A DNA stretch of 54,597 nucleotides, from assembly GCA_002104905.1 (NCBI GenBank), contig MCFE01000600.1, positions 1 through 54,597 of the forward strand, given 5' to 3'. This DNA is from Basidiobolus meristosporus CBS 931.73. Lineage: Eukaryota; Basidiobolomycota; Basidiobolomycetes; Basidiobolales; Basidiobolaceae. Made by a program: the position numbers and the translations under genes. Under the pieces are notes generated by a model. The model searched no databases. It was not told the DNA's origin and saw only the letters and a list, made by a program, of their open reading frames with translations. This document shows, in pieces, positions 34,363 through 54,597 of this stretch (position 1 is the stretch's first letter; each line of letters opens with the position of its first letter).

Positions 34363-34700
34363 ATTTAGGGTTGGGGGTGACAGTCACCAATAGGTGGAAT
34401 ATTTATTCCAATAACCCACAATAAAGCCAAGTGTTACTTGGGTAGCATTTTAACAAGTGAGTAATGGGAAGGGTAATATTGTGAAAGCCTACCAGAAAGG
34501 CTGTTTGGTTCAAGATGAGTTTGGGTAGAGCTGAGTGGCACTGGAGGGATAGCCAAAAGAGATAATAGCCTACTGAAAATTACAACCAAGTTTGACAAGT
34601 ATGACTTGGAGGTAAGTGAGAATTGAGCATTGAGCTTAAGGTAGCTACTCTGCAAAGTGGAAACATATGTGGCATATGCAAGTACTAGGTCTTCAAAATA
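34363..34700 (-). mobile_element. LINE unit 1: fossil 3' fragment of a telomeric non-LTR element
   Basis: Starts (element 3' end) with TTAGGGTTGGGGG, then the shared terminal block with CACC-AATA-GGTG hairpin and ...TATTTATT...AATAAAGCCA. The minus-strand frame 34655-34434 (ending KMLPK) resembles the C-terminus of the RT protein at 50778-52922. The 5' limit is approximate. It is heavily truncated and diverged. Confidence 0.65.
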
Positions 34701-34767
34701 TTCAATATGCTGAGCAACTGCTGTATCAGGAGCTTGTCAAGTATTATTCTCCAATAAGACTGCACAT

Positions 34768-35610
34768 TGGGTTAGGGGGGAGACAGTCACCAACATGTGA
34801 AATCTTTATTACAGTGGAGACAAAGAAGCCAGTGCTACTATTGTAACTTTGATACAAGGGTGTCTAGCTGAGGGGAGTTGGTAGGTAAGTTAACAAGGAG
34901 AGATGATGGTTTCTCAGTGATCAGGACACTGTTCAGTGGGAAGGGGGGTAGCAAGAGGGGTGAGAATGATTTGTGAGCAATATTGATAAGGGGACTATGA
35001 TAAGGATTGATATTCATCATAAAGGGAGTGTGCTCCTTGAGATATTGCTGCCAAAGGTCTGTCAAGTACTTCAGGTAGGCCAGCTTGGGTTTTTCTGACT
35101 GCAGAATATAATGAGCAAACTTCTTGACATCAAGATCTCCAAGTATAGCACTCCAGCAGGAGCCAGGTGTACTGTGGTGTGTTCTCTCTTGGCCTTGATC
35201 TTTGGGTTGTTGCAGTGGTGAAGTCTGAAATATAATCTGGTTCTAAGGCAGAGAAGTCTGATATTATTGGGCATAAACCTAAAAGCATCAAGGATTGCAT
35301 GTCTGTAGGGGCATTCAGGCAGATGAGACACCAAGGAGGTAATACAGCAGACTGCAAATTTGTCAAGCTCAGTGCAGTCTCTATAAGTAAGAGAGAGAAG
35401 TGGTAAGCCAGATGCCAGGACAGGGAAGACAAACTGCCAAGTAAAAGGAGGCAGCAGGGAGCTGAAGTTGTAGGAGGAGTAACAGCTGGTGGTTTGTGGA
35501 GTGGCCATCTTGCCAGGACAATTCTCTTCTTAGGTGTGCTCTTGAGTCTAGTCCAGTAGGAAGGCAAGGAATGCCAATATTTATAGTAGAAACCTGAGCA
35601 GGTAGAGTGT
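34768..35610 (-). mobile_element. LINE unit 2: 5'-truncated, mutated copy of the RT element
   Basis: Element 3' end begins GGGTTAGGGGGGAGACAGTC, the same terminal block as unit 10. The minus strand then matches the last ~250-300 residues of the unit-10 RT protein (for example LPECPYRHAIL and TPFMMNINPYH), split across frames by frameshifts (pieces at 35065-34838, 35508-35071 and 35669-35130). Similarity stops near 35610, the 5' truncation point. It is clearly inactive. Confidence 0.9.
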
Positions 35611-37391: not shown

Positions 37392-38187
37392 TATTGCCCT
37401 AATTGCCCTAATTGCTCTATTTGCTCAATTGTCTTGACTTGGGCAATATGCTTGCTTTTATCCTGAGGATTGTAGAAAAGGTACATGGCTCACAGAGATT
37501 TGTCAGAGATGATGAAATCAGAATGTAATTAAGCTGCACACCAACTCTATCATCTGACTTTGGCACTGTAATCATGTTGCTATGCAATATTACTGTTGAT
37601 CACGTGTTGAACAAAAATATCAGCCATATCAATAGTACGTGTTCATTCATGCGGGCTGCCATACATGATTCATCTATAGCTCACATTGCATTGCTAACAG
37701 GACAGACCTCTAGGGTCTGAGGTATGTGGTCTTCTCAAACCCAAGGATCTTGCCATCAAGTGTGTTCAAGCGTGCATTGTGTAAATAGAAAGCTTAGAGT
37801 ATGCATATAAGCAATATTCAATGCACTAGGCATACAGCCAAAGTAAAGGTGGATATAGAATAGCATTTTCAAGGCATGCTCAACATCGGGAAATGAATAG
37901 AACATAACTACGGTGTAGATGTCAACCGCACTTGGGGTCAGATGCTGCATTCTCATTCATTGCTTTTGATTATTGCACTTGGTGGCCTCAATCATACATT
38001 ATGTATCAGTCCGATCCGATCAGACAAACTGCTGCGTAAACGATGACAAAGATGGGATATTTCCAACGTTATCTCGATCTGCACCATGCGAATCGATCGC
38101 CTCCTGTCGTTACCATGATGCTATTAGCTGAAACTAAACACGCAATGCTGGTCGCCATTCATGATGTCACTGGAAACATAGGTCGAG
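37392..38187. other. intergenic, start of the Con-6 tandem repeat unit
   Basis: Contains upstream DNA that recurs before other Con-6 copies (for example CAGACAAACTGCTGCGTAAACG at ~38021 and ~39707). No further gene seen. Confidence 0.5.
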
Positions 38188-38194
38188 TATTTAA
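38188..38194 (+). promoter_or_regulatory. TATA-like box, Con-6 copy 1
   Basis: TATTTAA 62 nt before ATG 38250; the other copies have TATATAA at the equivalent place, so this one is slightly mutated. Confidence 0.5.
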
Positions 38195-38249
38195 CTGCAC
38201 CAGAGGCTCCTTCTTCCACATATCATTTCTCGAATAACTCAAAAGCACC

Positions 38250-38435
38250 ATGGAATACGAAGGAAAGAACCCAGGAAACGTTGAAGGAGGACTCAAGGCC
38301 GCCGCTCACAATCCCAACGTCTCAGCCGAGAAGCATCAAGAATCGCTAGAGAAGGCATCGCAGATCCATGAGGAGCGTACTGGCAAACCACTGGAAGGGC
38401 AAACCATCGAAAAGGAATCCAAGGATTCAAAATAA
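38250..38435 (+). CDS. Con-6 family protein copy 1, 61 aa
   Basis: Conidiation-specific protein 6 domain: NPGNVEGGLKAAAHNPNVSA matches the family core NPGNVxGGxKAxxxNPNVSxEA. Con-6 proteins are small, hydrophilic, cytosolic proteins abundant in spores and stress; their molecular action is unknown. Ascomycete Con-6 usually carries two tandem domains, whereas this has one, followed by a Glu/Lys-rich helix (EKASQIHEE) and a short tail ending KESKDSK. No intron. First of five tandem copies; 0.9-1.0 kb spacing and shared promoter and 3' flanks show that the unit was duplicated with its regulatory DNA. Confidence 0.88.
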   Translation: MEYEGKNPGNVEGGLKAAAHNPNVSAEKHQESLEKASQIHEERTGKPLEGQTIEKESKDSK

Positions 38436-39120
38436 AGAACAGACACACTTTACTGTGTACTTTGAAATCTCGGTTACCATGACCAAGGCCGTATATAAAA
38501 TTGTGATAAAAGTGGAGTGTTGTCTATTGCCGCTCCAGCTGACTTTACTAGATGAATCTATTTATCGATCGAGTACCAGTTGGATCTGATATTCTGGAAA
38601 CATAAATGTTCATTAGTTTGCTCGATTCCTCGATAATGTAATAGTTGCAACTTGACCGGGATTTTATCGAACTTCGTGACATCACCATAGAATGCCCTAC
38701 AATAGGGAATGTTCACTCAGTACCTCCAAACATGAATCTAGTCCGATGATGAGCAGTATTGTACACAGCAGGGGTTGTGGTTTTGAAATACCGTTAAGTA
38801 CATCCAGTGCATATTTAGGCCGATATATAGTGTTGCCGCGAGTTGCTTTATATTAGCTTGAAGAAATGGATAGAGCGGTCGTTTCCGTGATTGGGGCCAA
38901 GGGTCGCATTCTTATACATCGATCTCCTCGATGGGCGCTTCAATCATACAGTGTCTATCAACCAAATCCAATCGCCCGAGCTTCAATGTAAACAATGCCA
39001 GCGTTTTCCCGATCTACGCGTTGAACATCGATCATCTGAAGTCGATAGTATAACGCCATTAAATGAAACTTGACTCGAAGAGCTCACCATTCATGATGTC
39101 ACTGTGGACGTATAGGTCAA

Positions 39121-39127
39121 GTATATA
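39121..39127 (+). promoter_or_regulatory. TATA box, Con-6 copy 2
   Basis: GTATATAAGC about 60 nt before ATG 39184, followed by the shared CTTCTTCCA leader motif. Confidence 0.6.
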
Positions 39128-39183
39128 AGCTCCCATAAGGTTTCTTCTTCCATAGAAGATCTATCTGGCAACACAGAAACACC

Positions 39184-39369
39184 ATGGAGTACGAAGGAAA
39201 GAACCCCGGAAACGTTGAAGGAGGATTCAAGGCTGCCGCTCACAATCCCAACGTCTCAGCCGAGAAGCAACAAGAATCACTAGAGAAGGCGTCCCAGATC
39301 CACGAGGAGCGTACTGGCAAACCACTGGAAGGGCAGACCATTGAAAAGGAATCCAAGGATTCAAAATAA
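39184..39369 (+). CDS. Con-6 family protein copy 2, 61 aa
   Basis: Nearly identical to copy 1 (differences such as GGF for GGL and KQQ for KHQ), so duplication is recent or the copies are homogenised. Same single Con-6 domain and KESKDSK tail. Confidence 0.88.
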   Translation: MEYEGKNPGNVEGGFKAAAHNPNVSAEKQQESLEKASQIHEERTGKPLEGQTIEKESKDSK

Positions 39370-39854
39370 AAACATTGCCCGTTTTAACGTGTGCGCTGAT
39401 TAGTGATGTTAGTCTTGCTATTATATGAAAATCAACTGCATGATGAATTTGTAGGCGCTGGTTCATGGAGGCTGCTTTACCCGATTCATCTGTAGGTCAA
39501 CTCACATTTGTAGCGGGTCAGGCATTTAGATTTCGAGATTTGAAGTCCTCCTATACCTTGGGATCTCATTATTAAGTGTGTCCGAGCGAGGATCCAAGCT
39601 CAAAGATGCGAAATGAAGCGGAGGAAACACTGGATAATGTACCGTTAGTGCATAGATATCAACAGTACTTAATTCACTTATCAGCCTCGATCATACATCG
39701 TGTATCAGACAAACTGCTGCGTAAACGGTCGAATATGCCAAAGCAATGCTGATCTGTAGATATCGATCACCTCAGACAGATAGCATAATGGCATTGACTG
39801 AAGCTAGTCATGAAGCGCTCATTATGCATGATGTCACTGAGAAAATAGGTTGAG

Positions 39855-39861
39855 TATATAA
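39855..39861 (+). promoter_or_regulatory. TATA box, Con-6 copy 3
   Basis: TATATAA 62 nt before ATG 39917; the leader between them is almost identical to that of copy 1. Confidence 0.6.
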
Positions 39862-39916
39862 GCGCACCAGAGGCTCCTTCTCCCACATATCATTTCTCAA
39901 ATAACCCAAAAGCACC

Positions 39917-40093
39917 ATGGAATACGAAGGAAAGAACCCAGGAAACGTTGAAGGAGGACTCAAGGCCGCCGCTCACAATCCCAACGTCTCAGCCGAGAAG
40001 CAACAAGAATCACTAGAGAAGGCATCGCAGATCCATGAGGAGCGTACTGGCAAACCACTGGAAGGGCAAACCATTGAAAAGGAATCAAAATAA
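39917..40093 (+). CDS. Con-6 family protein copy 3, 58 aa
   Basis: Same protein as copy 1 but ending KESK-stop: a 9-nt in-frame loss removes three residues of the tail. At 58 codons it falls below common ORF length cut-offs and is easily missed. Coding sequence and promoter are otherwise intact. Confidence 0.85.
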   Translation: MEYEGKNPGNVEGGLKAAAHNPNVSAEKQQESLEKASQIHEERTGKPLEGQTIEKESK

Positions 40094-40222
40094 AATTCGG
40101 GCACATTATCAAGTGTACCTTGAAACTTTGGTTATCGTGTTACTTCTGTGGTATACATAACTACGTGTATACTTCACATGTTCGAACGTACATTTGGAGT
40201 CTGGTGGGTCATAAACACAATG

Positions 40223-40325
40223 GACTTGTTCCATCATGATCACAGTGCCAGATTAGGATCAAAATCAAAAACTTAACATATTGATAACAAAATAAACTGC
40301 ACTTTCTGGCACAATGGAACAAGTC
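40223..40325. repeat. short imperfect inverted repeat
   Basis: Arm GACTTGTTCCAT...GTGCCAGA at 40223-40253 is matched in reverse complement by TCTGGCAC...ATGGAACAAGTC at 40305-40325, around a ~50-bp AT-rich loop. The second arm lacks about 9-10 bases. Could be a MITE-like scar. Confidence 0.65.
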
Positions 40326-40726
40326 TAATGCAGATGCTCATGCAACCTTGGAAAGTGAGGGCTTCGGTAGTGTATTCCCTTGGCATATATGTATCAATGT
40401 GACTTGGGTATCACCGATGGGAGTTCATGCAAATCTAATTAAGCAGAGCCATGTGTGAAATACTGGATTAGCCACTATCCTATATGAGACTTGCGCGTCA
40501 TCAATAGAGCCTAGCTAACTTGGCATAGTCATCTCATCGATCATGACACTTATTGACCTTGATCATTGATTATGTACTTGGCATAATCTTCTCATCGATC
40601 GTGTATTTATTAATTCTAATATCCCGCAGTCATCGCGATCTATATGGTATAGATCGATCGTCAGAAATGTCGTCGACAATGACCAGACACTGGTGCCATA
40701 CGGGGTAAGGCTCGCGTATATAAGCC

Positions 40727-40733
40727 AGTTAAA
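40727..40733 (+). promoter_or_regulatory. TATA box, Con-6 copy 4
   Basis: TATATAA 52 nt before ATG 40779, then the CTTCTTCCACAGATCATTTC leader shared with copies 1 and 3. Confidence 0.6.
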
Positions 40734-40778
40734 GGTGCCTTCTTCCACAGATCATTTCTCTAATAACTCGAGAGCACC

Positions 40779-40964
40779 ATGGAATACGAAGGAAAGAACC
40801 CCGGAAACGTTGAAGGAGGATTTAAGGCTGCCGCTCGCAATCCCAACGTCTCAGCCGAGAAGCAACAGGAGTCACTAGAGAAGGCGTCCAAGATCCATGA
40901 AGAGCGTACAGGCGAGCCATTAAAGGATCAAACTATACAGAAGGAATCCAAGGATTCAAAATAA
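40779..40964 (+). CDS. Con-6 family protein copy 4, 61 aa
   Basis: Intact but the most diverged full-length copy: HEERTGEPLKDQTIQKESKDSK replaces HEERTGKPLEGQTIEKES... The Con-6 core is unchanged apart from AAARNPNVSA. Preserved length under divergence suggests it is still functional. Confidence 0.87.
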   Translation: MEYEGKNPGNVEGGFKAAARNPNVSAEKQQESLEKASKIHEERTGEPLKDQTIQKESKDSK

Positions 40965-41312
40965 AGACTAACGCGTATGCTGATTAACGATGCTAACTTT
41001 GCCATTGTATGGAGTCCAACTATTTTGTGGATTTGCGCTTGTTCATTCATGCAGACCTTACCTAACTCGTCCTTAGTCCACCTAGTAATTGTAACATGAG
41101 AGACTTTCGAGAATTCGAGATTGGTGGCCCTCCTAGATCTCAGTATCTCATCATGAAGCGTGTCCAAGCAAGAACCCAAGCACAAAATGAATATGAATAT
41201 CTTGCAAGTAAACAGAATCATCATGTTGAAAAATATCATATACACATGCAGTAAAGCTTCAGATGTATAAGAAATGAAGAGGAAGAAAAGGTGACTACTG
41301 TGCTAATATGCC

Positions 41313-41560
41313 ACGATCAAACATCGTATTTCAGTCAAATCCGGTCAGGTACAACACTGCGCACCCAAAGCTATCCCGATCTACGCTGTCTATATCGATC
41401 GTGTCACAGTTGCCGCGATCTTTATAGCATAGGTCGTTGGCCAACACAGACACTGATGCTGTACGGAGTTGGGCTCGTGTTTATAAGCTTGTCAAAGACA
41501 CACTATTGAGTGTACCTTAAAATCCCGTTACTATATCATTCATGTCAAAGCAAAAGATGT
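41313..41560 (+). repeat. Con-6 unit scar: promoter and 3'UTR without the gene
   Basis: The usual upstream DNA and a TTATAA box (41481-41486) lead directly into ACACACTATTGAGTGTACCTT, which corresponds to the 3' untranslated region of copy 1 (ACACACTTTACTGTGTACTT). The coding part has been deleted. Confidence 0.65.
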
Positions 41561-41740
41561 GCTTTTGTCCGCAAATGAAATGGGAGCCTTAATCAAGTAG
41601 AGAGCAATAAAATACCAAAGTCACTTGCTTAATATGTAACCAAGGGGTTCTAGGGACATGGGATATTAAACTACGAGTATCCTCCACTTGTTTGACTACA
41701 CGAACTAAGAACAGTAATACCGTAGGGGGTATGGTTTGTG

Positions 41741-41747
41741 TATATAA
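41741..41747 (+). promoter_or_regulatory. TATA box, Con-6 copy 5
   Basis: TATATAA 61 nt before ATG 41802, with the shared leader. Confidence 0.55.
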
Positions 41748-41801
41748 GCCAGCCAAAGTCTCCTTCTTCCACATAACGTTTTTCGAATAATCAAAAGCAC
41801 C

Positions 41802-42029
41802 ATGGAATATGAAGGAAATAACCCCAGAAACGTCGAAGATAAACTCAAGGCTGCCGCTCACAATCCCAATGTCTCAGCCGAGAAGCATCAAGAGTCACTA
41901 GAGAAGGCTTCCCAGATCCATGAAGAGGCGAACCGTTGGAAGGGCACACTATCCAAAAGGAATTTAACAATTCAAAATAAAGATTGTGCACGCACTCTTG
42001 TGTGTATAGAAAATTTCAACTCCCCATAG
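41802..42029 (+). pseudogene. Con-6 copy 5, frameshifted
   Basis: The Con-6 core is intact (NPRNVEDKLKAAAHNPNVSA), but a small deletion after HEE shifts the frame. The conserved tail is lost and translation runs on to 75 residues through the old 3' flank. The core carries extra substitutions (GGxK to DKLK). The Con-6 domain itself might still be made, but the gene appears to be degenerating. Confidence 0.8.
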
Positions 42030-44489: not shown

Positions 44490-44917
44490 GAGGGAAGGTT
44501 GCCAAGATTAGGTGAAATCTTTACATGCAGCCTAAACTAAAACAAATGAAGAAGTCAGCAGGGATGTATGCCCCTTGTATAATAGTTTTCAACCAACTTA
44601 AAGCAGTATTCCAAGGTATATCAGAGCTTTGATGTACATTGGAACGGAGTAAAGCAGCCTGGAGATTTAGAAATGTTTAAGAAAACATACAACAACAAAT
44701 GTATGGGAGTGTCTGATAAGGGAGATGAATCTAATTGCAGTGATATTTTCATGTAAAAGTAGCCAAGTGAGTGATTAATCAGGAAAGTCCTGAAAGGTGT
44801 GTATAAAGCATTTTCAGTCAAATTGGTACAAGACATCCAGAGAAAACACTTGAGTAACGTTTTTATCAAGTATATTTGCCATAGTGCAATGGCTGGTAAG
44901 CTTGATATTAGCAAGAC
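44490..44917 (-). mobile_element. LINE unit 3: degenerate telomeric LINE fragment
   Basis: Begins with a weak terminal block (AGGGAAGGTTGCCAAGATT, then AGGTGAAATCTTTACA and AATGAAGAAGTCAG). Minus-strand frame 44914-44621 looks like a decayed RT C-terminal piece. It sits at the break of the duplicate MBL gene. Confidence 0.5.
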
Positions 44918-45000
44918 TTAGGGGTTAAGGGGGATCAGCAATTAGCAAAAGGTGAAATCATTATATCAACAGCTCAAAATGCAGATGCAAAGTACAGTAT
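44918..45000 (-). mobile_element. LINE unit 4: short telomeric LINE 3' fragment
   Basis: TTAGGGGTTAAGGGGG followed by AGCAAAAGGTGAAATCATTA. Only about 80 bp remain before the next unit. Confidence 0.5.
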
Positions 45001-45210
45001 GGGTAGGGATAGGGGGGAGAACATTAGCAATAAGTGAAGCCTCAGTCTCAGTTGAAACATGAAAGCCATTAATGCTGATATAGCTTTGATACAAAGGATT
45101 ATAGCTGAGCAGAGCTGGTAGGTAGGTTGATAACCAGAAACAATGTCTTTTCATTGTACAAGACACTATTCAGAGTGAATGGTGGTAGCAAGAGTAGTTA
45201 GGGTTAGGGG
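45001..45210 (-). mobile_element. LINE unit 5: telomeric LINE 3' fragment
   Basis: GGGTAGGGATAGGGGGGAGA start, then sequence related to the unit-10 3'UTR (for example TAGCTTTGATACAA and GCTGAG). It ends at TTAGGGTTAGGGG near 45195-45208. The hairpin is eroded. Confidence 0.55.
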
Positions 45211-45484
45211 TCTAAATTCTTTTATTGAATCTGATCAAGTATAGTAATACCATTTCAACTTGATTCAAGTTGAGTGGTGCATATTGTACAAAGAAAATAT
45301 ATCCATGGTAATGTGAAGGTAAATATACTGCTTAAGTTGAGTTGAGTTCTGAAAAGAAATCTGTCAAAAAATCTGGCTAGAAAATGAAGTAAAGCTGGGA
45401 GTTATTTGAAAGCAAAGCACCAAGGGAAAGTGTAGAGCTATACTACCACTTCCTGGAAGGCAGGGATCTCACAGGAAGGCAGAA
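45211..45484 (-). mobile_element. unassigned insert between LINE units
   Basis: Follows TTAGGGTTAGGGG and contains TTCTTTTATTGAATCTG-like text that may be a very degenerate terminal block. No protein signal recognised. Confidence 0.35.
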
Positions 45485-45710
45485 GGGTTAGGGGGGAGGA
45501 AAGTCACCAAGTGGTGAAATCTTTATTTACTTATGACAAGTATTTAAAGAAGCCAAGTTAATCTGAAGTTATTCCTAGAAAGCTAGGTCTGAGAGATATC
45601 TTCCTGGTAAGCCAGGTCTGAGAGTTGAGAAGCTGAGTGGTACTATATTTCCTAGTTAGCTAGGTCTGAGAGAGGTTTCCTGGAAAGCCAGGCCTGAGAA
45701 GTGAGAATTT
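45485..45710 (-). mobile_element. LINE unit 6: telomeric LINE 3' fragment
   Basis: AGGGTTAGGGGGGAGGAAAG start, clean hairpin TCACC-AAGT-GGTGA, then ATCTTTATTTA and AAAGAAGCCAAG. It then carries the hairpin series listed separately and ends at the next TTAGGGTTAGG. Confidence 0.7.
45574..45692. repeat. series of four co-varying hairpins
   Basis: CCTAG-AAAG-CTAGG (45574-45587), CCTGG-TAAG-CCAGG (45603-45616), CCTAG-TTAG-CTAGG (45651-45664) and CCTGG-AAAG-CCAGG (45679-45692). Each is followed by TCTGAGA or CCTGAGA. Stem changes are compensated (A-T versus G-C). Confidence 0.85.
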
Positions 45711-46378
45711 AGGGTTAGGAGGGGGGGGGAAACCACCGGTTGGTGTAATCTTTATTGTCAATCATTGTGAAAATAAAGAAGTCAGGGATTGATTCTGGAG
45801 TCTTGTAACATATTTGTACAGACACTTTGGGTTAATATGTAGATAGGTTGCTATTTCTTGTAGTTCCTCTGCATTGAATAGAGTGTTGAGAGGGAGTGGC
45901 GGTAGCACTAGCAATAATAACTTATGATCTATGTATTGTGATGTGCTTTTGCCAATTGGTGATATAAAGCAAAGAAATGGGGTTTGCTGAGTTACATACT
46001 CTTGCCATAGTTGATTAAGATACTTGCTATATGCTTCTTTGGGGTTTTTACTCCCCTCTATTGCTTTGGCAAATTGCTGGACTTTTGGGCACTCAATGAT
46101 AGCTGCCCAACAGGAGTTATTTTGAAGCATCTTGCAAGAAATCCATGCTTGTATCAACTCATTTGTTGATTTTTGGAGTTGAATACGTAGTCTTGTACAG
46201 AGGTACAAAATTCTAATTGAATACAGGAGTAGTCCAAACGTTACCAGGACTGCGTGGTGATACTGTGTTGGTGGGAGCCATGGTAATAAAGTATAAATGC
46301 TGTGAGAAACAAACTTGTCCAGTTTTGTCAGGTATCTTGTTGGAATAGGCATTATTGCCAATCCAAACTCCAGTACCT
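45711..46378 (-). mobile_element. LINE unit 7: 5'-truncated RT element of a second family
   Basis: Starts TTAGGGTTAGGAGGGGGGGG, hairpin CACC-GGTT-GGTG, then ATCTTTATTG and AAATAAAGAAG. The minus-strand frame 46361-45762 (199 aa) matches the C-terminal ~200 residues of the unit-10 RT protein at the level of blocks (LDKFVSHSIYTLLPWLPPTQ, YLNQLWQEYVTQQTPF, LVLPPLPLNTLFNAEEL) but is clearly a different lineage. The frame is open although the rest of the RT is missing. Confidence 0.85.
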
Positions 46379-47037
46379 AGGGGGGGATGATCATCACCAA
46401 AGGTTGAAATCTTTATTTAAATAATAAATAAAGAAGCCAAGTTTGAATATGAATATCTGAGATCCAGGAAGCCTATAAGATAAACTTGGACTTTGCTGTA
46501 TCCCAAATATCCTCAATATCAAAGTCTAGAGGAGAGTGTAGCAAGACTGCTTGTTCACTGTAGTATTTCTTGAGGAAGTTTGTGACTTGAAGGGAAGGAG
46601 AGTTTTTCAACAAGCTGGTAAATCTTTTGAGGAGTTCTTTTTCCAGAGAGAATGGCACAAAGAGTGGAATGTCCAAGTGATGTCTGAATATATGCTCTGA
46701 GAGCTCCCAATCCAACATATTTTTGACTTCTTCTGTAAAATCTTCAACAATATCTTTGTCAAGAATAACTTCCAAGAGATCCCTGGCAATGTACTGAATG
46801 TTAATAATCTTAGGCATATGAATACCTAGGTCCTTGAGGTAGTTTCTTTGTTCTGATATTGGGAGATATCCTGCATTTCTGAAATAGCAAACAGCCCAGT
46901 TGGCAGTAGGAGGAGTATCAGGGCTGACAGGGAATCTTCTTCTGGCTGTTGAGTGCACTGGCTTAGCAGACTGTCTTGATGAAAGGGCAGCTGGTTTTGG
47001 ATGAGCTTGAAGTGCTTGGGAGTAGGTCTGAGTACAA
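46379..47037 (-). mobile_element. LINE unit 8: ORF1-type element, 5'-truncated
   Basis: Starts TAGGGGGGGGATGATCATCA with the unit-11 terminal block. The ORF1 frame from ~47037 down to 46473 is nearly identical to residues ~80-266 of the unit-11 ORF1 protein (few substitutions, such as QSA for QSP). It is cut exactly where TTAGGGGGG of unit 9 begins. High identity implies recent activity. Confidence 0.9.
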
Positions 47038-47136
47038 GGGTTAGGGGGGATGATCATCACCAAAGGGTGAAATCTTTATTTAAATAATAAAAAAAGAAGC
47101 CAAGTTTGAATATGAATATCTGAGATGCAGGAAGCC
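47038..47136 (-). mobile_element. LINE unit 9: ORF1-type element, 3'UTR only
   Basis: AGGGTTAGGGGGGATGATCA start, hairpin TCACC-AAAG-GGTGA, then the 3'UTR almost identical to unit 11 up to GAGATGCAGGAAGCC. It is interrupted there by the LTR at 47137. Confidence 0.85.
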
Positions 47137-47583
47137 TGTTGTGCATCAACATTTAAAACTTAGCCAATTTTACTCCGTTTGAAAATCTAGTACCCTAACT
47201 GACTTTCCCTAACCCAAACATAACAAATCCCAGTTACAGTTTATTTTATCCCACCTCAGAATCTATTGTTAGCTATCACACCTGATCTATTTTCAAATGG
47301 TCATTACATTATCAACCTATCTGCCAAGCCTTCCCAGGTGATTAGTCATCTGAGATCTATCCAACCATGGTGCAGTTGCCAAGACATCAGTTGATTGATG
47401 ATGTAATTTTCATTTATCTTATGCACCTGTGAACACCCAAATTTATCTCAATCAATCCAGTCCCTTGGCGCTTACTAATTCAACTTGATCAGAAAAGTAT
47501 AAATAAAGTTTACTGAACCTTTTGGTTTAGTGTGTGTCTCAACAAAATTAAGATTCTGTCTCAGCAAAAATAAGAATCCAACA
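47137..47583 (+). repeat. 5' LTR of Ty3/gypsy element 2 (approximate)
   Basis: Starts TGTTGTGCATCAACA directly after LINE unit 9. A candidate end CAACA at 47579-47583 makes perfect TGTTG/CAACA termini, with another CAACA at ~47540. Internal TATAAATAAAG at ~47498. The 3' LTR is missing. Confidence 0.55.
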
Positions 47584-47873
47584 ATTCTGTTCTAGTTTCT
47601 ATCCAAGCCTAGTATATCTAGCACTCCAAAGAACACCAAGCCTAGCCTGCCTAGCAAACAAATATCATTGTCTTTATAGCCAACCCAGCTATATCCAAGA
47701 CCAATATTAGATCAGAATCTTTCTGCTAATATTTCCGCTACTCTCTGATAATTCTAAGATTCTGCACTTAATTGTCCCTTTGGTTCAGTTAAACCATTCA
47801 AGAGTTTTATTACACTTTCTCTTGGATACAACATTTTTTTTGTTGAATTCCATTACATTCAGCCAATTAGAAG

Positions 47874-50715
47874 ATGTCCTCAGCAGCAAGCAATCCAAAC
47901 CTTTCCATGTTGGAAGAGCCCAGAAGAAATCAGGAAGAACTTACTGAACAGCTTGAAAACATCATGCTTGAAAGAAATACCATGATGCTTGAGCACTCAA
48001 AGCTTGCCAAAACAAGATCTGATAATCACTGTAGAGATGAACTCCTTGAAGTTATATCCGGTTACCAAGATGAAATTGGAATAATTAAGGAAGCACTGGA
48101 GAATATTGCCATAGTAATTGACAGCATTGAAAATCCGCCAAGCCTTGCTCTGCATCAGCCACCAAAAAGTCATGCCTTTGAGTCCTCCAGATCTACATCT
48201 CCTTCTAGACCTGCCCTGGTGGTTGTCCCAAGATCCTTGCCTGTTTATGCTGAAGGCACCAATGCCATCAAGAATCCAACAGAGTTTCTTTACAAGTTTA
48301 GTCACATCTTAGCTGCACACCAGCTAGACCCTGACACCAACTGGGCTAGACTCCTGCCTCTCTGTCTCACAATGCAAGATGCTGACTGGGTTGAAGTGAA
48401 CATTCCTTCCAATAGTACGTGGAAAATTGCCCAAAACCTCTTTTGCAGCCATTTTGAAGATCCTCTCAAGAAAGCACATCTGAACTGCGACTTATGGAAA
48501 ACTAAAATGCAAAAAGGTGAATCTGTGCAACACTTCTGTGATAGATTCCAAAGACAAATGAGATTAGCTGGAGTTGGTGATGATAATCCATCACTTACTG
48601 CTCATTTTCTTTCAAACTTTTCACACCAGCTACAGAGCAATATTGCTATTGTCCAAGCATGTAACCCTGCACGTACCTATGACCAGATCTCAGAGATATG
48701 TACACTGGCAATCACCTTGACTGCAGCTGTTAGCCAGACTTCAGGCAACTCAACCCAATATCCACAACAGCCGGAAAAGAGACCAGTCATGTGACCAAGA
48801 AGCAATCAACCGCTACCAAGCACTGTGAGCTTCATGGAAAATGCTATCATTCTACCAGTGAATGCAAAGGCATCACCAAGCAGTCAAACAAGTCAGGAAA
48901 CACTGCAGAAAAGCAGCAAAACACCAAAACTGATAATCCATATGCTGATGACAAGTGATTTAAATGTGGAAATATGGGACATAGATCACCTGCCTGTCCT
49001 GAGAAGAACTCCACACCATCAGCCAAAATTACCCAGATCCTTGATGATCATTCAGCCAATGATACAATGAGGTATGAAGAAGCATATGAAGAACTTACAG
49101 TTCAAGATTATAACAACCTCTTTGAGTTTCCGGCTAAAATTGCAACTGTTCAAGAAAAGAAGCAACCAATCACACAGCTCAAAGCCACAGAAGTGCCACT
49201 CACCCTCAATGGCCAATCATATGTAGCACTACTGGATACTGGATCATCCAACTCTATTGTATCACCCAATGTAGTCAGAGAACTCAATTTGGAGATAGAA
49301 AAACGTCCAGGAAAAATCATTCTTGCAGCTAAGGATCTCTCAGCCCCAAGAATTGGCATTACCAACCCAATCAACATACATTGTGGCTCAGTAACCATAA
49401 TCCATCAGATGGAAGTGATTGACATACCAGATGGACCTCAGGTAGTCATTGGTCCGGACACCTTCAGCAAACTTGGCTTTCACATAGGCGGACTACCAGT
49501 TTCCTATCCAGGAATCACTAAATCTCAGCCACTCATAATGGATCAAATCCCAGAAATTATCTCATCCCAACCAGAAGAAGAAGAGTTAACCCCAACTTTT
49601 CAAGAATATTCTCAATCAGTCAAATTGGATATTCAGCTGGCCATAGAGAGAAATCAGGCCATTCCAAGGAACAGCTTCTGCACCATCCCAGAATCCATTG
49701 TTACACTAGAGACCCCACCTGGTGAGTCAACATGGAGGAGGCAATACCCAATTCCGCATTCATGTCAACACTTAGTTGATGAGATAGTCCAAAAATGGGC
49801 TGACAATGGAATTATCACTCAAGCCCCTGTCAACACAACATTCAACAGCCCTTTGACGCTTGCACCAAAGAAAGATGCTGATGAAAATCTAACCTTGAAG
49901 AGACCCTGTTTGGACCCCAGACCTCTGAACAAGCTTCTCCAAGATGACAAGTTTCCAATTCCAAGAATCCAAGATATCTTTTCCACACTATCAGGAGCAA
50001 AAGTATTCTCCAAGTTGGACTTGAAGGATGCATATCACTGATTCCAGATCCATCCTGATCACCAGCATAAGACTGCCTTCACTTGGAATAATATGCAATG
50101 GATGTTTCAGGGAGCTCCCTTTGGCCTAAAGACACTTACCAGCAAGTTTCAGAGAGTCATGACTATAATACTCAAGAATACACCATACGCATTGGTATTT
50201 GTTGATGATGTCATCATATTTTCCACTAACCGTGACGATCATGCAACCCATGTCACTGATGTAATCAACAGACTGACAACTGCTGGACTGATTCTCAATG
50301 CTGAAAAGTGCAGTTTTGCCCGCCTCAAAATCAATCTACTTGGATTTATAGTCACACCAGCTGGCCACCAATTAGATCCTTTCAAACTGGTCAATATCCC
50401 AGAATGGCCAAAACCCACTAGCGCCAAGCAACTTCAACATTATCTTGGAGTATTCAACTATTTCAGGGAACACATACCACTCATGTCCTCATTGAGTGCC
50501 CTTTAGATGCATTATGCCATAGCCCTGATCTCACCTCAGCCTGGAACAAGACTCATGACCAAGCCTTTGAGTCACTCTGCCAACTGCTTCCACAAGCACC
50601 CACCTTATCCTACCCAGACTTTACTAGCCCTTTGTTGTTGCTACAGATGCATCTAATGTTGGGTTAGGGGCAGTCCTCTATCAAGATGAAGACCAAAATC
50701 CGCCTCACTGGATCT
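47874..50715 (+). pseudogene. Ty3/gypsy element 2: gag-pro-RT, 3'-truncated and mutated
   Basis: Gag from ATG 47874 (306 aa) has a coiled-coil start and a Ty3-type capsid (LCLTMQDADWVEV ... GESVQHFCDRFQRQM). A frameshift near 48780 separates it from the zinc-knuckle region (HCELHGKCYHSTSECK and FKCGNMGHRSPAC, whose first Cys is a TGA). Protease has ALLDTGSS. RT runs from RRQYPIPHSCQHLVDEIV through SKLDLKDAYH, a TGA at 50039-50041, GAPFGLK, then the catalytic FVDDVIIF, and connects to RNase H (DASNVGLGAVLYQDE in a shifted frame). Integrase and the 3' LTR are absent: the sequence stops at 50715 where a LINE/telomeric junction begins. Confidence 0.93.
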
Positions 50716-52936
50716 TAGGGGGGAGACAGTCACCAACAGGTGAAATCTTTATTTCAGTTGAAACAAAGAAGCCAGCGCTACTGTTGTAGCTTTGATACAA
50801 GAGTGTGTAGCTGAGGGGAATTTGTAGGTAAGTTAATAAGAAGTGATGATAGTTCTTCAGTGCTCAAGACACTGTTCAGTGGGAAGGGGGGTAGCAAGAG
50901 AGGTAAGAATGACTTGAGAACAACATTAATGAGGGGAATGTGATAAGGGTTGATATTCATCATAAAGGGAGTGTGCTGCTGCAGATATTGCTGCCAAAGG
51001 TCTATCAAGTACTTCAGGTAGGCCAGCTTGGGTTTTTCTGACTGCAGAATATAGTGTGCAAACTTCTTGACTTCAGGATCTCCAAGTATAGTTCTCCAGC
51101 AGGAGCCAGGTGTTATGTGGTGTGTTCTCTTCCAGGCCTTAATCAGTGGGTTGCTGCAGTTGTGAAGTCTGAGGTATAATCTGGTTCTAAGGTAGAGAAG
51201 TCTGATCTTATAGGGCATAAACCCAAAAGCACCAAGAATAGCATGTCTGTAGGGGCATTCAGGCAAATGAGACACCAAGGAGGTAATGCACCATACTGCA
51301 AACTTGTCAAGCTTAGTGCAGTCTCTAGAAGTAAGAGAGAGAAGTGGTAAGCCAAATTCCAGGACAGGGAAGACAAACTGCTTGAGTAGAAGGAGGCAGC
51401 TGGGAGCTGAAGTTGTAGGAGGAGTAACAGCCAGTAGCTTGTGGAGTGCCTGTCTTGCCAGGATAATTCTCTTCTTCAGGTGTGCTCCAGAGTCTAGTCC
51501 AGTAGTAAGGAAAGGAAAGCCAAGATATGTAGCAGAAACCTGAGCAGGTAGAGTGGAGTTCTCCAAGTTGATGGGTGAGCCCAAAGGTACTGTCTTTGCA
51601 ATGGAAAGCTGGAGATTATTCTTCTGCAGATACTGGTGGTTGGTCTGGGAGTCTTGTTGCACATTGGAGGAGGATATTCTGATGTCATCAGCAAAGAGAG
51701 TAACCAGGCAGTCAGCTGAGAGTCTTGGGAAATCATTCAGGAAGATGGCAAACAGTATAGGACCAAGCACAGAGCCTTGAACCACTCCATTAGGAACTGG
51801 GAACACAGCTGATTGCTCACTTGGGTGCAGAATTCTTGCTTGTGGATCCAGAAACAGAGACCTGACAAGGAGGGTGAGAGAGGTACTGGAGAAGCATTGC
51901 AACTTGGACCAAAGCAGATTTCTGTCAACTAAATCAAAGGCCTTAGTAATATCAAACAGAACAGAGGGATACTTGCACTGGAGAGAGTGATCTTGGCTAA
52001 GTATGACTGCATATTCCAAGGAGAGGCCAGGAACAAAGCCAAACTGTGCAGGATGAAACTTGAGTGAGTCAGAGTAGAGCTCCTGAGCAAGCAGAAGCTC
52101 AAACACCTTTCTGCAGGTGGGCAGCAGAGATATTGGCCTGTAGGAGCTAGGATCCAGGTGCTTTCCTTTACCCTTGTACAGTGGCAGAACCTTTGCAAAG
52201 GACCATTCCTCAGGAGTAGAAAGCTGGGCTGAGCATTGTTGAAACAGTGGAAGCAGAAGTGCAGACATGGCCTTGGTACTAGTCTTCAGAAGCTCATAAG
52301 AGATTGTGTCAACACCTGGAGCAGAAGAGTTGGGAAGCCTCTTGAGCACATTATGGATTCTCCTTTGATCAAGTGCAAGTGGGATGGGCAGAGTCTTGAA
52401 GTCAGGATGAAAGCCAGGAGTTGAGTACTGCTTTGTAGAGAAGAAGATGTTAGCCAGCTGTTCTGTTGAAGGTAACTTCTTGGAAGAGGGCCTCATTGCC
52501 CTGTAGAGTCTTGATACTGTTCTTGTAATAGAGTTGGAAGATTGCAGAGGCAAAGAACTCATAATATGATCCCAGAGCTGAGTATGCAGAGTGTGGTGAA
52601 TTGCCTTGGAGTGATGCATTGCTGTCAGGAGGAGTTTCTCTGTTTTTGGGTTAGGGAAACTCAGGTAGCTTTGTTGCAGGGCTGAAACAATGGATTCCCA
52701 TTTTCTTGAGGTAACAGCAGTAGTCTTGCATGGCAGTGAGAGGGAGGCAGACACCAGAATCAGATGCTTCACAAAGAGCCAGGCATAGTTGAGATCATCT
52801 GGCAGAGAAAGTAGCAAACTGGCAAGCTTCAAGTAGTTCCCAAAGTCTTTCTTCTGATTCTTGGTAGCTTTGTGGGTGAGCACAGTAAGTTTTGGCAGCT
52901 TCTTCTTCACAACTGGTTGCATGGAAAGGGACCAGG
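50716..52936 (-). mobile_element. LINE unit 10: reverse-transcriptase telomeric element
   Basis: 3' end TTAGGGGGGAGACAGTCACC, hairpin TCACC-AACA-GGTGA, then ATCTTTATTTC and AAAGAAGCCA. It carries one long ORF (50778-52922) and about 15 bp of 5' leader before degenerate telomeric repeats. It is either a full element with a minimal leader or one truncated just before its ATG. The 3' end sits directly on broken gypsy DNA. Confidence 0.9.
50778..52922 (-). CDS. non-LTR retrotransposon reverse transcriptase, no endonuclease seen, 714 aa
   Basis: LINE-type RT (Jockey/Tad-like pattern), not a Penelope type. ATG 52922 is 6 codons after an in-frame TAA. Residues 1-190 are Ser/Leu-rich and do not show apurinic-endonuclease motifs. 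RT blocks: LPNSSAPGVDTISYELLKT (~196-214), YKGKGKHLDPSSYRPISLLP (~249-268), VLFDITKAFDLVD (~321-333, first catalytic Asp), NGVVQGSVLGPILF (~378-391), and FADD (~410-413, catalytic pair). A thumb and a ~250-residue C-terminal domain follow, shared with units 2 and 7 (LPECPYRHAIL, WQQYLQQHTPFMMNINPYH). No CCHC knuckle and no restriction-like endonuclease motif is visible. The intact reading frame suggests recent activity. It would supply RT for attachment to chromosome ends. Confidence 0.93.
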   Translation of the reverse strand: MQPVVKKKLPKLTVLTHKATKNQKKDFGNYLKLASLLLSLPDDLNYAWLFVKHLILVSASLSLPCKTTAVTSRKWESIVSALQQSYLSFPNPKTEKLLLTAMHHSKAIHHTLHTQLWDHIMSSLPLQSSNSITRTVSRLYRAMRPSSKKLPSTEQLANIFFSTKQYSTPGFHPDFKTLPIPLALDQRRIHNVLKRLPNSSAPGVDTISYELLKTSTKAMSALLLPLFQQCSAQLSTPEEWSFAKVLPLYKGKGKHLDPSSYRPISLLPTCRKVFELLLAQELYSDSLKFHPAQFGFVPGLSLEYAVILSQDHSLQCKYPSVLFDITKAFDLVDRNLLWSKLQCFSSTSLTLLVRSLFLDPQARILHPSEQSAVFPVPNGVVQGSVLGPILFAIFLNDFPRLSADCLVTLFADDIRISSSNVQQDSQTNHQYLQKNNLQLSIAKTVPLGSPINLENSTLPAQVSATYLGFPFLTTGLDSGAHLKKRIILARQALHKLLAVTPPTTSAPSCLLLLKQFVFPVLEFGLPLLSLTSRDCTKLDKFAVWCITSLVSHLPECPYRHAILGAFGFMPYKIRLLYLRTRLYLRLHNCSNPLIKAWKRTHHITPGSCWRTILGDPEVKKFAHYILQSEKPKLAYLKYLIDLWQQYLQQHTPFMMNINPYHIPLINVVLKSFLPLLLPPFPLNSVLSTEELSSLLINLPTNSPQLHTLVSKLQQ

Positions 52937-52968
52937 CTTAGGGCTAGGGTAGGGTTAGGGTTAGGGGG
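52937..52968 (+). repeat. interstitial degenerate telomeric repeats
   Basis: CTTAGGG, CTAGGG, TAGGG, TTAGGG, TTAGGGGGG between LINE units 10 and 11: the longest internal telomere remnant of the stack, with variant repeats. Confidence 0.9.
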
Positions 52969-53055
52969 GATGATCATCAGCAAAGGGTGAAATCTTTATT
53001 TAAATAATAAATAAAGAAGCCAAGTTTGAATATGGATATCTGAGATGCAGGAAGC

Positions 53056-53856
53056 CTACAAGATAAACTTGGACTTTGCTGTATCCCATATATCCTCAAT
53101 ATCAAAGTCTAGAGGAGAGTGTAGCAAGACTGCTTGTTCACTGTAGTATTTCTTGAGGAAGTTTGTGACTTGAAGGGAAGGAGAGTTTTTCAACAAGCTG
53201 GTAAATCTTTTGAGGAGTTCTTTTTCCAGAGAGAATGGCACAAAGAGTGGAATGTCCAAGTGATGTCTGAATATATGCTCTGAGAGCTCCCAATCCAACA
53301 TATTTTTGACTTCTTCTGTAAAATCTTCAACAATATCTTTGTCAAGAATAACTTCCAAGAGATCCCTGGCAATGTACTGAATATTAATAATCTTAGGCAT
53401 ATGAATACCTAGGTCCTTGAGGTAGTTTCTTTGTTCTGATATTGGGAGATATCCTGCATTTCTGAAATAGCAAACAGCCCAGTTGGCAGTAGGAGGAGTA
53501 TCAGGGCTGACAGGGAATCTTCTTCTGGCTTTAGAGTGCACTGGCTTAGGAGACTGTCTTGATGGAAGGGCAGCTGGTTTTGGATGAGCTTGAAGTGCTT
53601 GAGAGTAGGTCTGAGTACAAGTAGTAGAAGTTCCTGGTTGCTGAGAATTTTCAGATTGACTGGATGAAGAGCTAATTGAGGGGTAGCAAGGTAAGGAAGA
53701 AGCTGAAAGAGAAGTGGAGAGGGCTGGGTGAAGTTCAGAAAGAGTTTTGAAAAGAATTTGGAACTGAGATTTCAACATTGAGTTTTCAGCCTCAAGAAGA
53801 GAAACTCTTTGTTCAAGGTAAGAAGTCTGTAAAGAGTGAAAGTTGGGTAAAGACAT
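53056..53856 (-). CDS. ORF1 (Gag-like) protein of the terminal telomeric element, 266 aa
   Basis: ATG 53856. Residues ~14-40 are a strong leucine coiled coil (LEQRVSLLEAENSMLKSQF), then a Ser-rich linker, a basic patch (KARRRFPVSPD, ~106-116) and a C-terminal domain (~120-266) beginning NWAVCYFRNAGYLPISEQRN, with alternating charged and aliphatic blocks. This is the general order of LINE ORF1 proteins (trimerising coiled coil, then nucleic-acid-binding domain). It probably binds element RNA and guides it to the telomere. No zinc knuckle is seen. A truncated, nearly identical copy is in unit 8. In this unit the stop is followed only by the 3'UTR, so ORF2 must act in trans. Confidence 0.85.
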   Translation of the reverse strand: MSLPNFHSLQTSYLEQRVSLLEAENSMLKSQFQILFKTLSELHPALSTSLSASSLPCYPSISSSSSQSENSQQPGTSTTCTQTYSQALQAHPKPAALPSRQSPKPVHSKARRRFPVSPDTPPTANWAVCYFRNAGYLPISEQRNYLKDLGIHMPKIINIQYIARDLLEVILDKDIVEDFTEEVKNMLDWELSEHIFRHHLDIPLFVPFSLEKELLKRFTSLLKNSPSLQVTNFLKKYYSEQAVLLHSPLDFDIEDIWDTAKSKFIL

Positions 53857-53907
53857 GGAAGTAATAAATAAGAAGAATGGAGTAGTTGGGGTGGGAGGGT
53901 GGGAAAA

Positions 53908-54438
53908 TAGGTAAGAAGAAAAGAGAGGAAAGATCTGAAATTGAAAATCTCAGAATTTATAGATAGGTGGACAAGGGTAGAGGATTGATTAATCCAGGGT
54001 TAGGGAAAAATAGGTAAGAAGAAAAGAGAGGAAAGATCTGAAATTGAAAATCTCAGAATTTATAGATAGGTGGACAAGGGTAGAGGATTGATTAATCCAG
54101 GGTTAGGGAAAAATAGGTAAGAAGAAAAGAGAGGAAAGATCTGAAATTGAAAATCTCAGAATTTATAGATAGGTGGACAAGGGTAGAGGATTGATTAATC
54201 CAGGGTTAGGGAAAAATAGGTAAGAAGAAAAGAGAGGAAAGATCTGAAATTGAAAATCTCAGAATTTATAGATAGGTGGACAAGGGTAGAGGATTGATTA
54301 ATCCAGGGTTAGGGAAAAATAGGTAAGAAGAAAAGAGAGGAAAGATCTGAAATTGAAAATCTCAGAATTTATAGATAGGTGGACAAGGGTAGAGGATTGA
54401 TTAATCCAGGGTTAGGGAAAAATAGGTAAGAAGAAAAG
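53908..54438. repeat. 103-bp tandem repeats at the 5' end of the terminal element
   Basis: Units begin TAGGTAAGAAGAAAAGAGAG at 53908, 54011, 54114, 54217, 54320 and 54423: a constant 103-bp period and virtually no divergence. Each contains CCAGGGTTAGGGAAAAA, a telomere-like motif near its end. The sixth is cut after ~16 bp by the telomere. Confidence 0.96.
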
Positions 54439-54439
54439 A

Positions 54440-54597
54440 GGGTAGGGTTAGGGTTAGGGTTAGGGTTAGGGTTAGGGTTAGGGTTAGGGTTAGGGTTAGG
54501 GTTAGGGTTAGGGTTAGGGTTAGGGTTAGGGTTAGGGTTAGGGTTAGGGTTAGGGTTAGGGTTAGGGTTAGGGTTAGGGTTAGGGTTAGGGTTAGGG
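54440..54597 (+). repeat. telomere, (TTAGGG)n
   Basis: About 26 perfect repeats after one TAGGG, G-rich strand 5' to 3' toward the window end, so this is the physical right chromosome end. Confidence 0.98.

Follow-up and report, generated by a model that had tools for sequence, protein, structure and literature searches.

Non-LTR retrotransposons stacked head to tail at chromosome ends of the fungus Basidiobolus meristosporus

Introduction

How does a fungal chromosome end that is closed by a (TTAGGG)n telomere come to be built, over its outer part, of retrotransposons lying one behind another? The question is raised by contig C870 (MCFE01000600.1) of Basidiobolus meristosporus CBS 931.73, which is analysed here in its entirety (54,597 nucleotides; "the window") against the whole assembly of 89.0 Mb in 1311 contigs. 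A first-pass annotation made from the letters alone had described at least eight minus-strand units of non-long-terminal-repeat (non-LTR) retrotransposons, with their 3′ ends inward, often 5′-truncated and separated by TTAGGG remnants with extra G. All of these features are present. We count ten head-to-tail units from position 44490 to the contig end beneath a telomere cap, every one on the minus strand with its 3′ end leftward and most of them 5′-truncated, and the joints consist of short TTAGGG remnants followed by an extra G-run. The block TTAGGGTTAGGG, allowing at most one mismatch, has 33 matches in the window on both strands, against a mean of 0.21 and a maximum of 2 in 100 shuffles. 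The reverse transcriptase (RT) is of the non-LTR kind, as had been proposed, since it matches Pfam RVT_1 (Table 1) and its best solved chains are those of LINE-1 ORF2 (E 5e-14).

The reading that we favour, with a probability of about 0.7, is that these are end-attaching elements, in which the 3′ end of the chromosome tip primes reverse transcription on a run of Cs near the 3′ end of the element RNA, and telomerase subsequently re-caps the product.

Distribution and orientation in the genome

Stacking of these elements at ends is real and extends across the genome. The exact 3′ end of the RT family, a long interspersed nuclear element (LINE), occurs 658 times (613 forward and 45 reverse), with no occurrence of a reversed-pattern control. 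Telomere arrays share this contig strand bias, and the informative measure is therefore whether the 5′ end of an element faces a nearby contig end. All 25 RT 3′ ends with exactly eight Gs, which form a complete set, face a contig end at distances of up to 13.3 kb; 19 of them are on contigs longer than 60 kb, where 2.4 would be expected within 15 kb by chance. Among the first 100 copies listed of the 658, only the 64 on contigs of known size were placed. The 38 on contigs longer than 100 kb all fit, and the other 26 are on contigs shorter than 20 kb, a weak test in which nine are closer to the opposite end. Scoring of 62 RT copies, themselves 97–100% identical, out of 1586 candidates gave 33 of 34 copies with known contig size that are near a contig end and facing it. 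The pattern of interior copies in both orientations, named at first pass as contrary to end attachment, did not emerge from any of these counts. On contig C291, for example, elements are located near both ends in opposite orientations and face outward at each. The smaller partners behave in the same way: all 12 plus-strand matches among the 134 listed for the gag-only family are within 10.6 kb of the left contig end, and of the 100 places listed for 217 copies of a family resembling short interspersed nuclear elements (SINEs), 28 are on contigs of known size and 17 of these on contigs longer than 90 kb, where all 17 are no more than 17.9 kb away from the end that they face.

Joints and telomere caps

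We collected 103 distinct junctions, of which 101 could be parsed and two could not. The G-run is 3–12 nt long and comprises six Gs in 46 of the 101 joints, and beyond it the telomeric match does not exceed 9 nt in 96 joints and 7 nt in 84; the joints hold about one TTAGGG plus the G-run. The terminal telomere arrays observed are up to about 220 nt long. Joints so nearly free of repeats imply either that attachment takes place on ends almost without telomere or that the telomeric letters derive from the RNA. A TTAGGG is found within 20 nt in 79 of the 91 RT 3′ ends listed. Poly(A) tails, which would also have spoken against the first-pass proposal, are absent from the 103 junctions, where no T-run in the 56 nt adjoining the block is longer than four, and this fits priming upstream of any tail.

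On the outward side, 5′-truncated RT copies are capped by (TTAGGG)n in loci L053, L057, L059, L062, L063 and L066. Repeats placed directly on truncated 5′ ends are expected if telomerase completes the end. The RNA-binding domain of TERT is found on contig C880, in two pieces above cut-off, and in none of 14 control genomes.

A shared RNA tail

The RNA 3′ ends of five families were folded, and for all of them the prediction is a first stem whose 3′ arm contains AAUAAA, then a second one (CACC/GGUG), and then a short linker leading into CCCC(CC)UAA (z-scores of −4.2, −3.2, −3.9, −3.6 and −2.4). We collected 55 tails, dropping ends less than 70 nt from a locus edge, and aligned 14 chosen representatives. 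At pair ten of the first stem the LINE has C-G, gag-A has A-U, and gag-B and gag-C have G-C; one SINE-like variant has lost this pair. By pair count four cells are changed on both sides, which none of 500 shuffles reach, and the covariation score is reached by 12 of 500. Covariation in the second hairpin was considered and rejected, its sequence being nearly invariant.

The LINE and its proteins

Complete LINE copies encode ORF1, followed by a single in-frame UGA and then CUA, and by 922 open codons that comprise an endonuclease-like region and the RT (ORF2). The first methionine of ORF2 is codon 142, and codons 1–140, which precede it, have a pN/pS (ratio of nonsynonymous to synonymous polymorphism) of 0.11 in 18 copies; the endonuclease region gives 0.13 in the same number of copies, a value indicative of purifying selection. 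Two of the 20 complete ORF2 copies, L044 and L064, were dropped for 29 and 4 in-frame stops, respectively, which left these 18. Neither region was part of the query with which the copies were fetched, so their ranking introduced no bias. TGA precedes CTA in all 23 copies matching an exact 24-base pattern at the ORF2 start, a constancy that is weak by itself because the copies are young. UGA-CUA is a leaky stop context. From the sequence we infer that ORF2 is made by readthrough of this stop, although initiation at a near-cognate codon may provide an alternative start; a search of the literature on readthrough in LINEs gave no direct match.

Matches to apurinic/apyrimidinic endonuclease (APE)-like profiles come from relatives of the LINE rather than from the N-terminus of the genome copies themselves: P0002 matches PF03372 with E 7e-5 and 23 bits, below the cut-off of 24.5, and P0006 matches PF14529 with 27.5 bits against a cut-off of 27.4. 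The GDLN and SDH motifs, which we take to be those of the endonuclease, are retained, and the position that we assign to the catalytic Glu is Asp in LCLIDV. An endonuclease-less element was considered and rejected in view of the conservation and constraint of this region and the weak APE-like matches in relatives. A Pfam search, which included no dedicated profile for the restriction-enzyme-like (REL) endonuclease, found nothing C-terminal of the RT in P0002, P0006 or the window RT; in P0004 the single match there is to an unrelated family (E 0.32). ORF1 of the element has a match in B. meristosporus CBS 931.73 with 98% identity over 65% of the query. Relatives' ORF1 proteins P0124–P0126 are 434–500 amino acids (aa) long and are probably encoded on the same contigs as the endonuclease-RT relatives P0001–P0003. 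An RT tree was computed for which 70 of 120 listed matches were offered and 69 plus the window RT were included, P0005 having been omitted as an apparently chimeric gene model; the tree carries no labelled clade references, and we therefore claim no clade. Structure predictions for P0002 and for the gag-only protein had mean pLDDT (predicted local distance difference test) scores of 44.8 and 39.4, from which no inference is drawn. A second RT lineage, which by eye reads like P0006, is found beside the main family at a contig end (C142:1-500, locus L071).

Gag-only and SINE-like elements

The outermost unit of the window encodes a 297-aa protein with 29% identity to ORF1 over 154 aa (E 1e-18) and no RT. 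L048 holds a second copy of the element, which matches over 1068 nt, and the 134 matches listed in the genome mostly show 87–100% or 44–49% identity. Only two homologues of the protein were found, both in B. ranarum. Gag-only elements carry tandem repeats of about 100 bp at their 5′ ends (window 53904-54440; L067, 24-491), and as GGGTTAGGG is present in each of the window repeat units, telomere sequence might form the end of a completed cDNA.

The SINE-like family, with the tail AGGAAAGTCACC, is about 524 nt long and its longest ORF beginning with ATG has 40 aa. At its 5′ end are an exact B box and an A box with 10 of 11 positions, judged by the general consensus of RNA polymerase III (Pol III) promoters; the boxes were sought after the sequence had been read, and the combination arises in 1 of 20,000 single-base shuffles. 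At least 217 copies have this 5′ end (206 forward and 11 reverse). The unit has no match in Rfam at E 1 and ARAGORN finds no tRNA in it, hence the designation SINE-like. Short length, lack of coding capacity, a predicted internal Pol III promoter and a 3′ tail shared with a LINE are together consistent with a SINE. The unit contains no run of four Ts, so that a Pol III transcript would extend into the flank; the copies nevertheless start at the C-run, which would favour internal priming. A further telomere-joined family, seen in L046 and L054, has the 3′ end AATAAAGCACTAGAACCCTAACCCTAA, a different tail without a G-run; its copy in L046 has tandem repeats containing CCCTAA in the 5′ part.

Possible modes of attachment

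Under the end-primed reading, a chromosome end left with about one TTAGGG would anneal through its GGG to the CCCCCC of the element RNA, in a register that may vary by slippage and so would yield G-runs of varying length. The RT of the LINE would copy the RNA outward until it stopped, leaving a 5′-truncated element that telomerase would afterwards re-cap, and the gag-only and SINE-like elements, which have the same tail, would be moved in trans by the same RT. The junctions, as read here, are compatible with pairing between the C-run of the RNA and the G-strand. If this is correct, the ORF2 protein would extend only G-ending telomeric primers when offered primers ending in TTAGGG, in TTAGGGTTA or in unrelated sequence.

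Several observations weigh against this reading. Telomere 24-mers number 7428 forward and 81 reverse, with telomere-bearing contigs nearly all telomere-right. One RT copy (C726:57065-59221) is directed inward and lies 57 kb from the end that it faces; the right end of C726 is telomeric and a copia-like fragment, recognised by eye, adjoins the 5′ side of the copy, so that this exception reads as a rearrangement. Twelve of the 91 RT 3′ ends listed lack a TTAGGG within 20 nt. Covariation in the predicted tail is thin: changes on both sides are confined to one pair, a number that 389 of 500 shuffles also reach, and 488 of 500 reach the further pair types. The selection on the endonuclease would not be needed for pure end-priming. 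Finally, the TTA of the joint could be encoded by the RNA instead of being derived from the target.

This last point leads to an explanation that we regard as unlikely, in which the RNA ends in CCCCCCUAA(CCC), the RT primes on any broken 3′ end with little or no annealing, and the TTAGGG of the joint is written from the RNA. It would account for the 23 of 101 joints that have exactly TTA before the G-run, many of them on non-telomeric sequence, and for the identical TTA joint with which several different families are attached to one SINE-like 5′ end. On the other hand, the telomeric match is longer than TTA in 63 of the 101 joints, and 18 stop at AGGGTTA, which is above the chance expectation of one base in four, in part through a SINE-like 5′ end that recurs among the joints and has GG as its last letters.

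It is rather less probable that the endonuclease takes the lead, in the manner of SART and TRAS, by nicking the G-strand near the base of the telomere, with the RT starting at the nick and the distal telomere being lost. The conservation and constraint of the endonuclease region agree with such a route, and SART1, whose endonuclease is of the APE class (PMC5537684), inserts into TTAGG repeats that its own endonuclease cuts (PMC7265360). SART1 requires at least three repeats (PMC7265360), however, and here terminal arrays reach about 220 nt, yet 96 of 101 joints extend no further than 9 nt beyond the G-run. Elements are moreover found on broken non-telomeric ends, such as that of the Ty3-like fragment at 50706.

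A small number of attachments could alternatively have been followed by spreading of arrays among ends through break-induced replication or unequal exchange, a process described for some MoTeR arrays (PMC7367193). Neighbouring SINE-like units 521–600 bp apart on ten of the contigs listed, together with the 103-bp and other 5′ tandem repeats, would be in keeping with it. However, 45-nt flanks differ in all 29 RT copies compared (one of the 30 loci L039–L068 yielded none), which favours separate attachments over array copying, and the 103 junctions are distinct; we consider spreading very unlikely as the main process. An assembly artefact or chimeric contigs, suggested by telomeres lying almost exclusively at right contig ends, has negligible probability in the face of open, constrained ORFs, unique joints across dozens of contigs and homologous gag-only proteins in B. 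ranarum.

Relation to known telomeric elements

The first-pass annotation had compared the stack to HeT-A/TART and to MoTeR. The comparison of stacking geometry stands for both, but likeness to MoTeR does not go beyond geometry. The system would appear to work like HeT-A/TART without being an established member of that group, and it is not a CRE-type MoTeR or FoTeR. The HeT-A, TART and TAHRE elements of Drosophila (Jockey clade) likewise form head-to-tail stacks on chromosome ends with the 3′ end inward, and pair a gag-only element with one encoding gag and endonuclease-RT (PMC5537684). The TART endonuclease is also under constraint although a chromosome end requires no nick (PMC5537684). In contrast to the fly, where the host is without telomerase, Basidiobolus, which belongs to a different kingdom, has a TERT domain and TTAGGG caps; its joints lack oligo(A), the tail consists of two predicted hairpins and a C-run, and the system includes a SINE-like member.

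MoTeR of Magnaporthe and FoTeR of Fusarium are also fungal, telomere-located and present as truncated copies, with the 5′ end outward in MoTeR (PMC7367193, PMC12857005), and a second MoTeR has common ends (PMC7367193). Both group with CRE and SLACS and carry a REL domain (PMC12857005; PMC7367193), and the 3′ side of FoTeR keeps 3.0–7.0 repeats, up to 8.0 in truncated copies (PMC12857005). The Basidiobolus LINE, in contrast, is APE-like and has about one repeat, a G-run and a hairpin tail. SART1 and TRAS1 of Bombyx (R1 clade) are APE-type LINEs in telomeres (PMC7265360), and SART1 RNA carries, close to a 3′ stem-loop, a motif resembling the telomere, which may pair with the bottom strand of the target (PMC7265360). 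Insertion within repeats, with repeats on both sides, characterises SART and TRAS, whereas the Basidiobolus joints are nearly repeat-free and a G-strand end would act as the primer.

RNA-telomere pairing is an idea associated with Athena and kin. These Penelope-like elements belong to another RT class, the Basidiobolus RT matching LINE-1 ORF2 and being accompanied by an APE-like endonuclease. Telomere-attaching, endonuclease-deficient Penelope-like elements are thought to prime from the chromosome end itself (PMC5537684), and Athena elements contain embedded telomeric repeats (PMC10088271). A survey of telomeric retrotransposons gives MoTeR1 as a fungal case, and a term search showed the word SINE to be absent from it (PMC10088271); a term search of an Entomophthorales genome paper likewise found no word beginning with telomer (PMC11105155). 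Our literature search, in which subscription papers were little covered, found no description of a telomeric SINE or of Basidiobolus elements at telomeres.

The best-known LINEs that attach to ends are those of flies, a group that lost telomerase. In Basidiobolus the same geometry occurs with a gag-only partner and in hundreds of copies, in an early-diverging fungus that keeps TERT, which suggests that end attachment arose in LINEs more than once and can coexist with telomerase as a second route of healing. The presence of the same tail on a SINE-like element offers a direct route to asking which RNA features suffice for end attachment. We tentatively propose a three-tier economy of ends in this telomerase-positive fungus, in which a LINE, a HeT-A-like gag-only element and what might be the first telomere-attaching SINE would each have in a hairpin tail a template like that of telomerase, CCCCCCUAA, such that a Pol III RNA, besides telomerase RNA, could template the healing of nearly telomere-less ends.

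Features of the window

Coordinates are collected in Table 1. A relic older than the array is located outside the stretch covered at first pass. The left border of the Ty3-like element was placed where gag-only identity ends and its LTR is putative; the next LINE is joined directly onto its broken end. ARAGORN found no tRNA in the window, and a Pfam profile search gave no significant match for the 204-aa ORF.

Table 1. Retrotransposon units, joints and telomere in the window (percentages are nucleotide identities)
Feature	Position	Strand	Evidence
Older relic, same kind and orientation	34365..35609	-	TTAGGGTTGGGGG and 3′ end (34365-34410), then GGGTTAGGGGGG and RT-family 3′ part; blastn 89.7% over 838 nt to RT copy L041
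Oldest unit of terminal array	44490..44920	-	3′ end block 44490-44530; core GGTGAAATCTTTA at 44511; 73.8% over 80 nt to gag-B 3′ end
Short degenerate unit	44921..45007	-	GGGGTTAAGGGGG and 3′ block; family D4
Diverged RT-family 3′ fragment	45008..45197	-	71% over 183 nt to RT copy L041
Unit after TTAGGGTTAGGGG	45198..45484	-	Sequence; unassigned to a family, none of five family sequences matching it
5′-truncated SINE-like element	45485..45708	-	TTAGGGGGG and shared hairpin tail; 98.7% over 224 nt to copy in L067
5′-truncated unit, 204-aa ORF (45762-46376)	45709..46376	-	By eye like C-terminus of second RT lineage
5′-truncated gag-only element	46377..47038	-	98.2% over 657 nt to outermost gag-only unit
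Very short gag-only 3′ fragment	47039..47137	-	96.8% over 93 nt
Ty3-like LTR element	47138..50706	+	Retrotrans_gag E 2.2e-5; ORFs; broken inside pol (by eye)
LINE copy, 5′-truncated, 719-codon RT ORF	50707..52938	-	3′ end CTTAGGGGGGAGACAG...; RVT_1 E 3.8e-24; 99% over 2221 nt to L041
Interstitial telomere-like tract merging into G-run	52939..52963	+	Sequence
Outermost gag-only element	52964..54440	-	297-codon open frame (53059-53949); hairpin tail at left
103-bp × 5.2 tandem repeat, 5′ end of outermost gag-only element	53904-54440		GGGTTAGGG in every unit
Terminal (TTAGGG)n telomere, 157 bp	54441..54597	+	Sequence

Just inside the array, positions 38157-41927 contain a 137-nt block in five diverged copies, at spacings of 733–1024 bp; these copies probably represent a tandem gene family. 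The stretch GATCCAGTGAGGCGGAT is found at the broken end beneath two separate LINE attachments, at 50706 in the window and near 259979 on contig C2, in opposite orientations, and may reflect either chance or a preferred break site.

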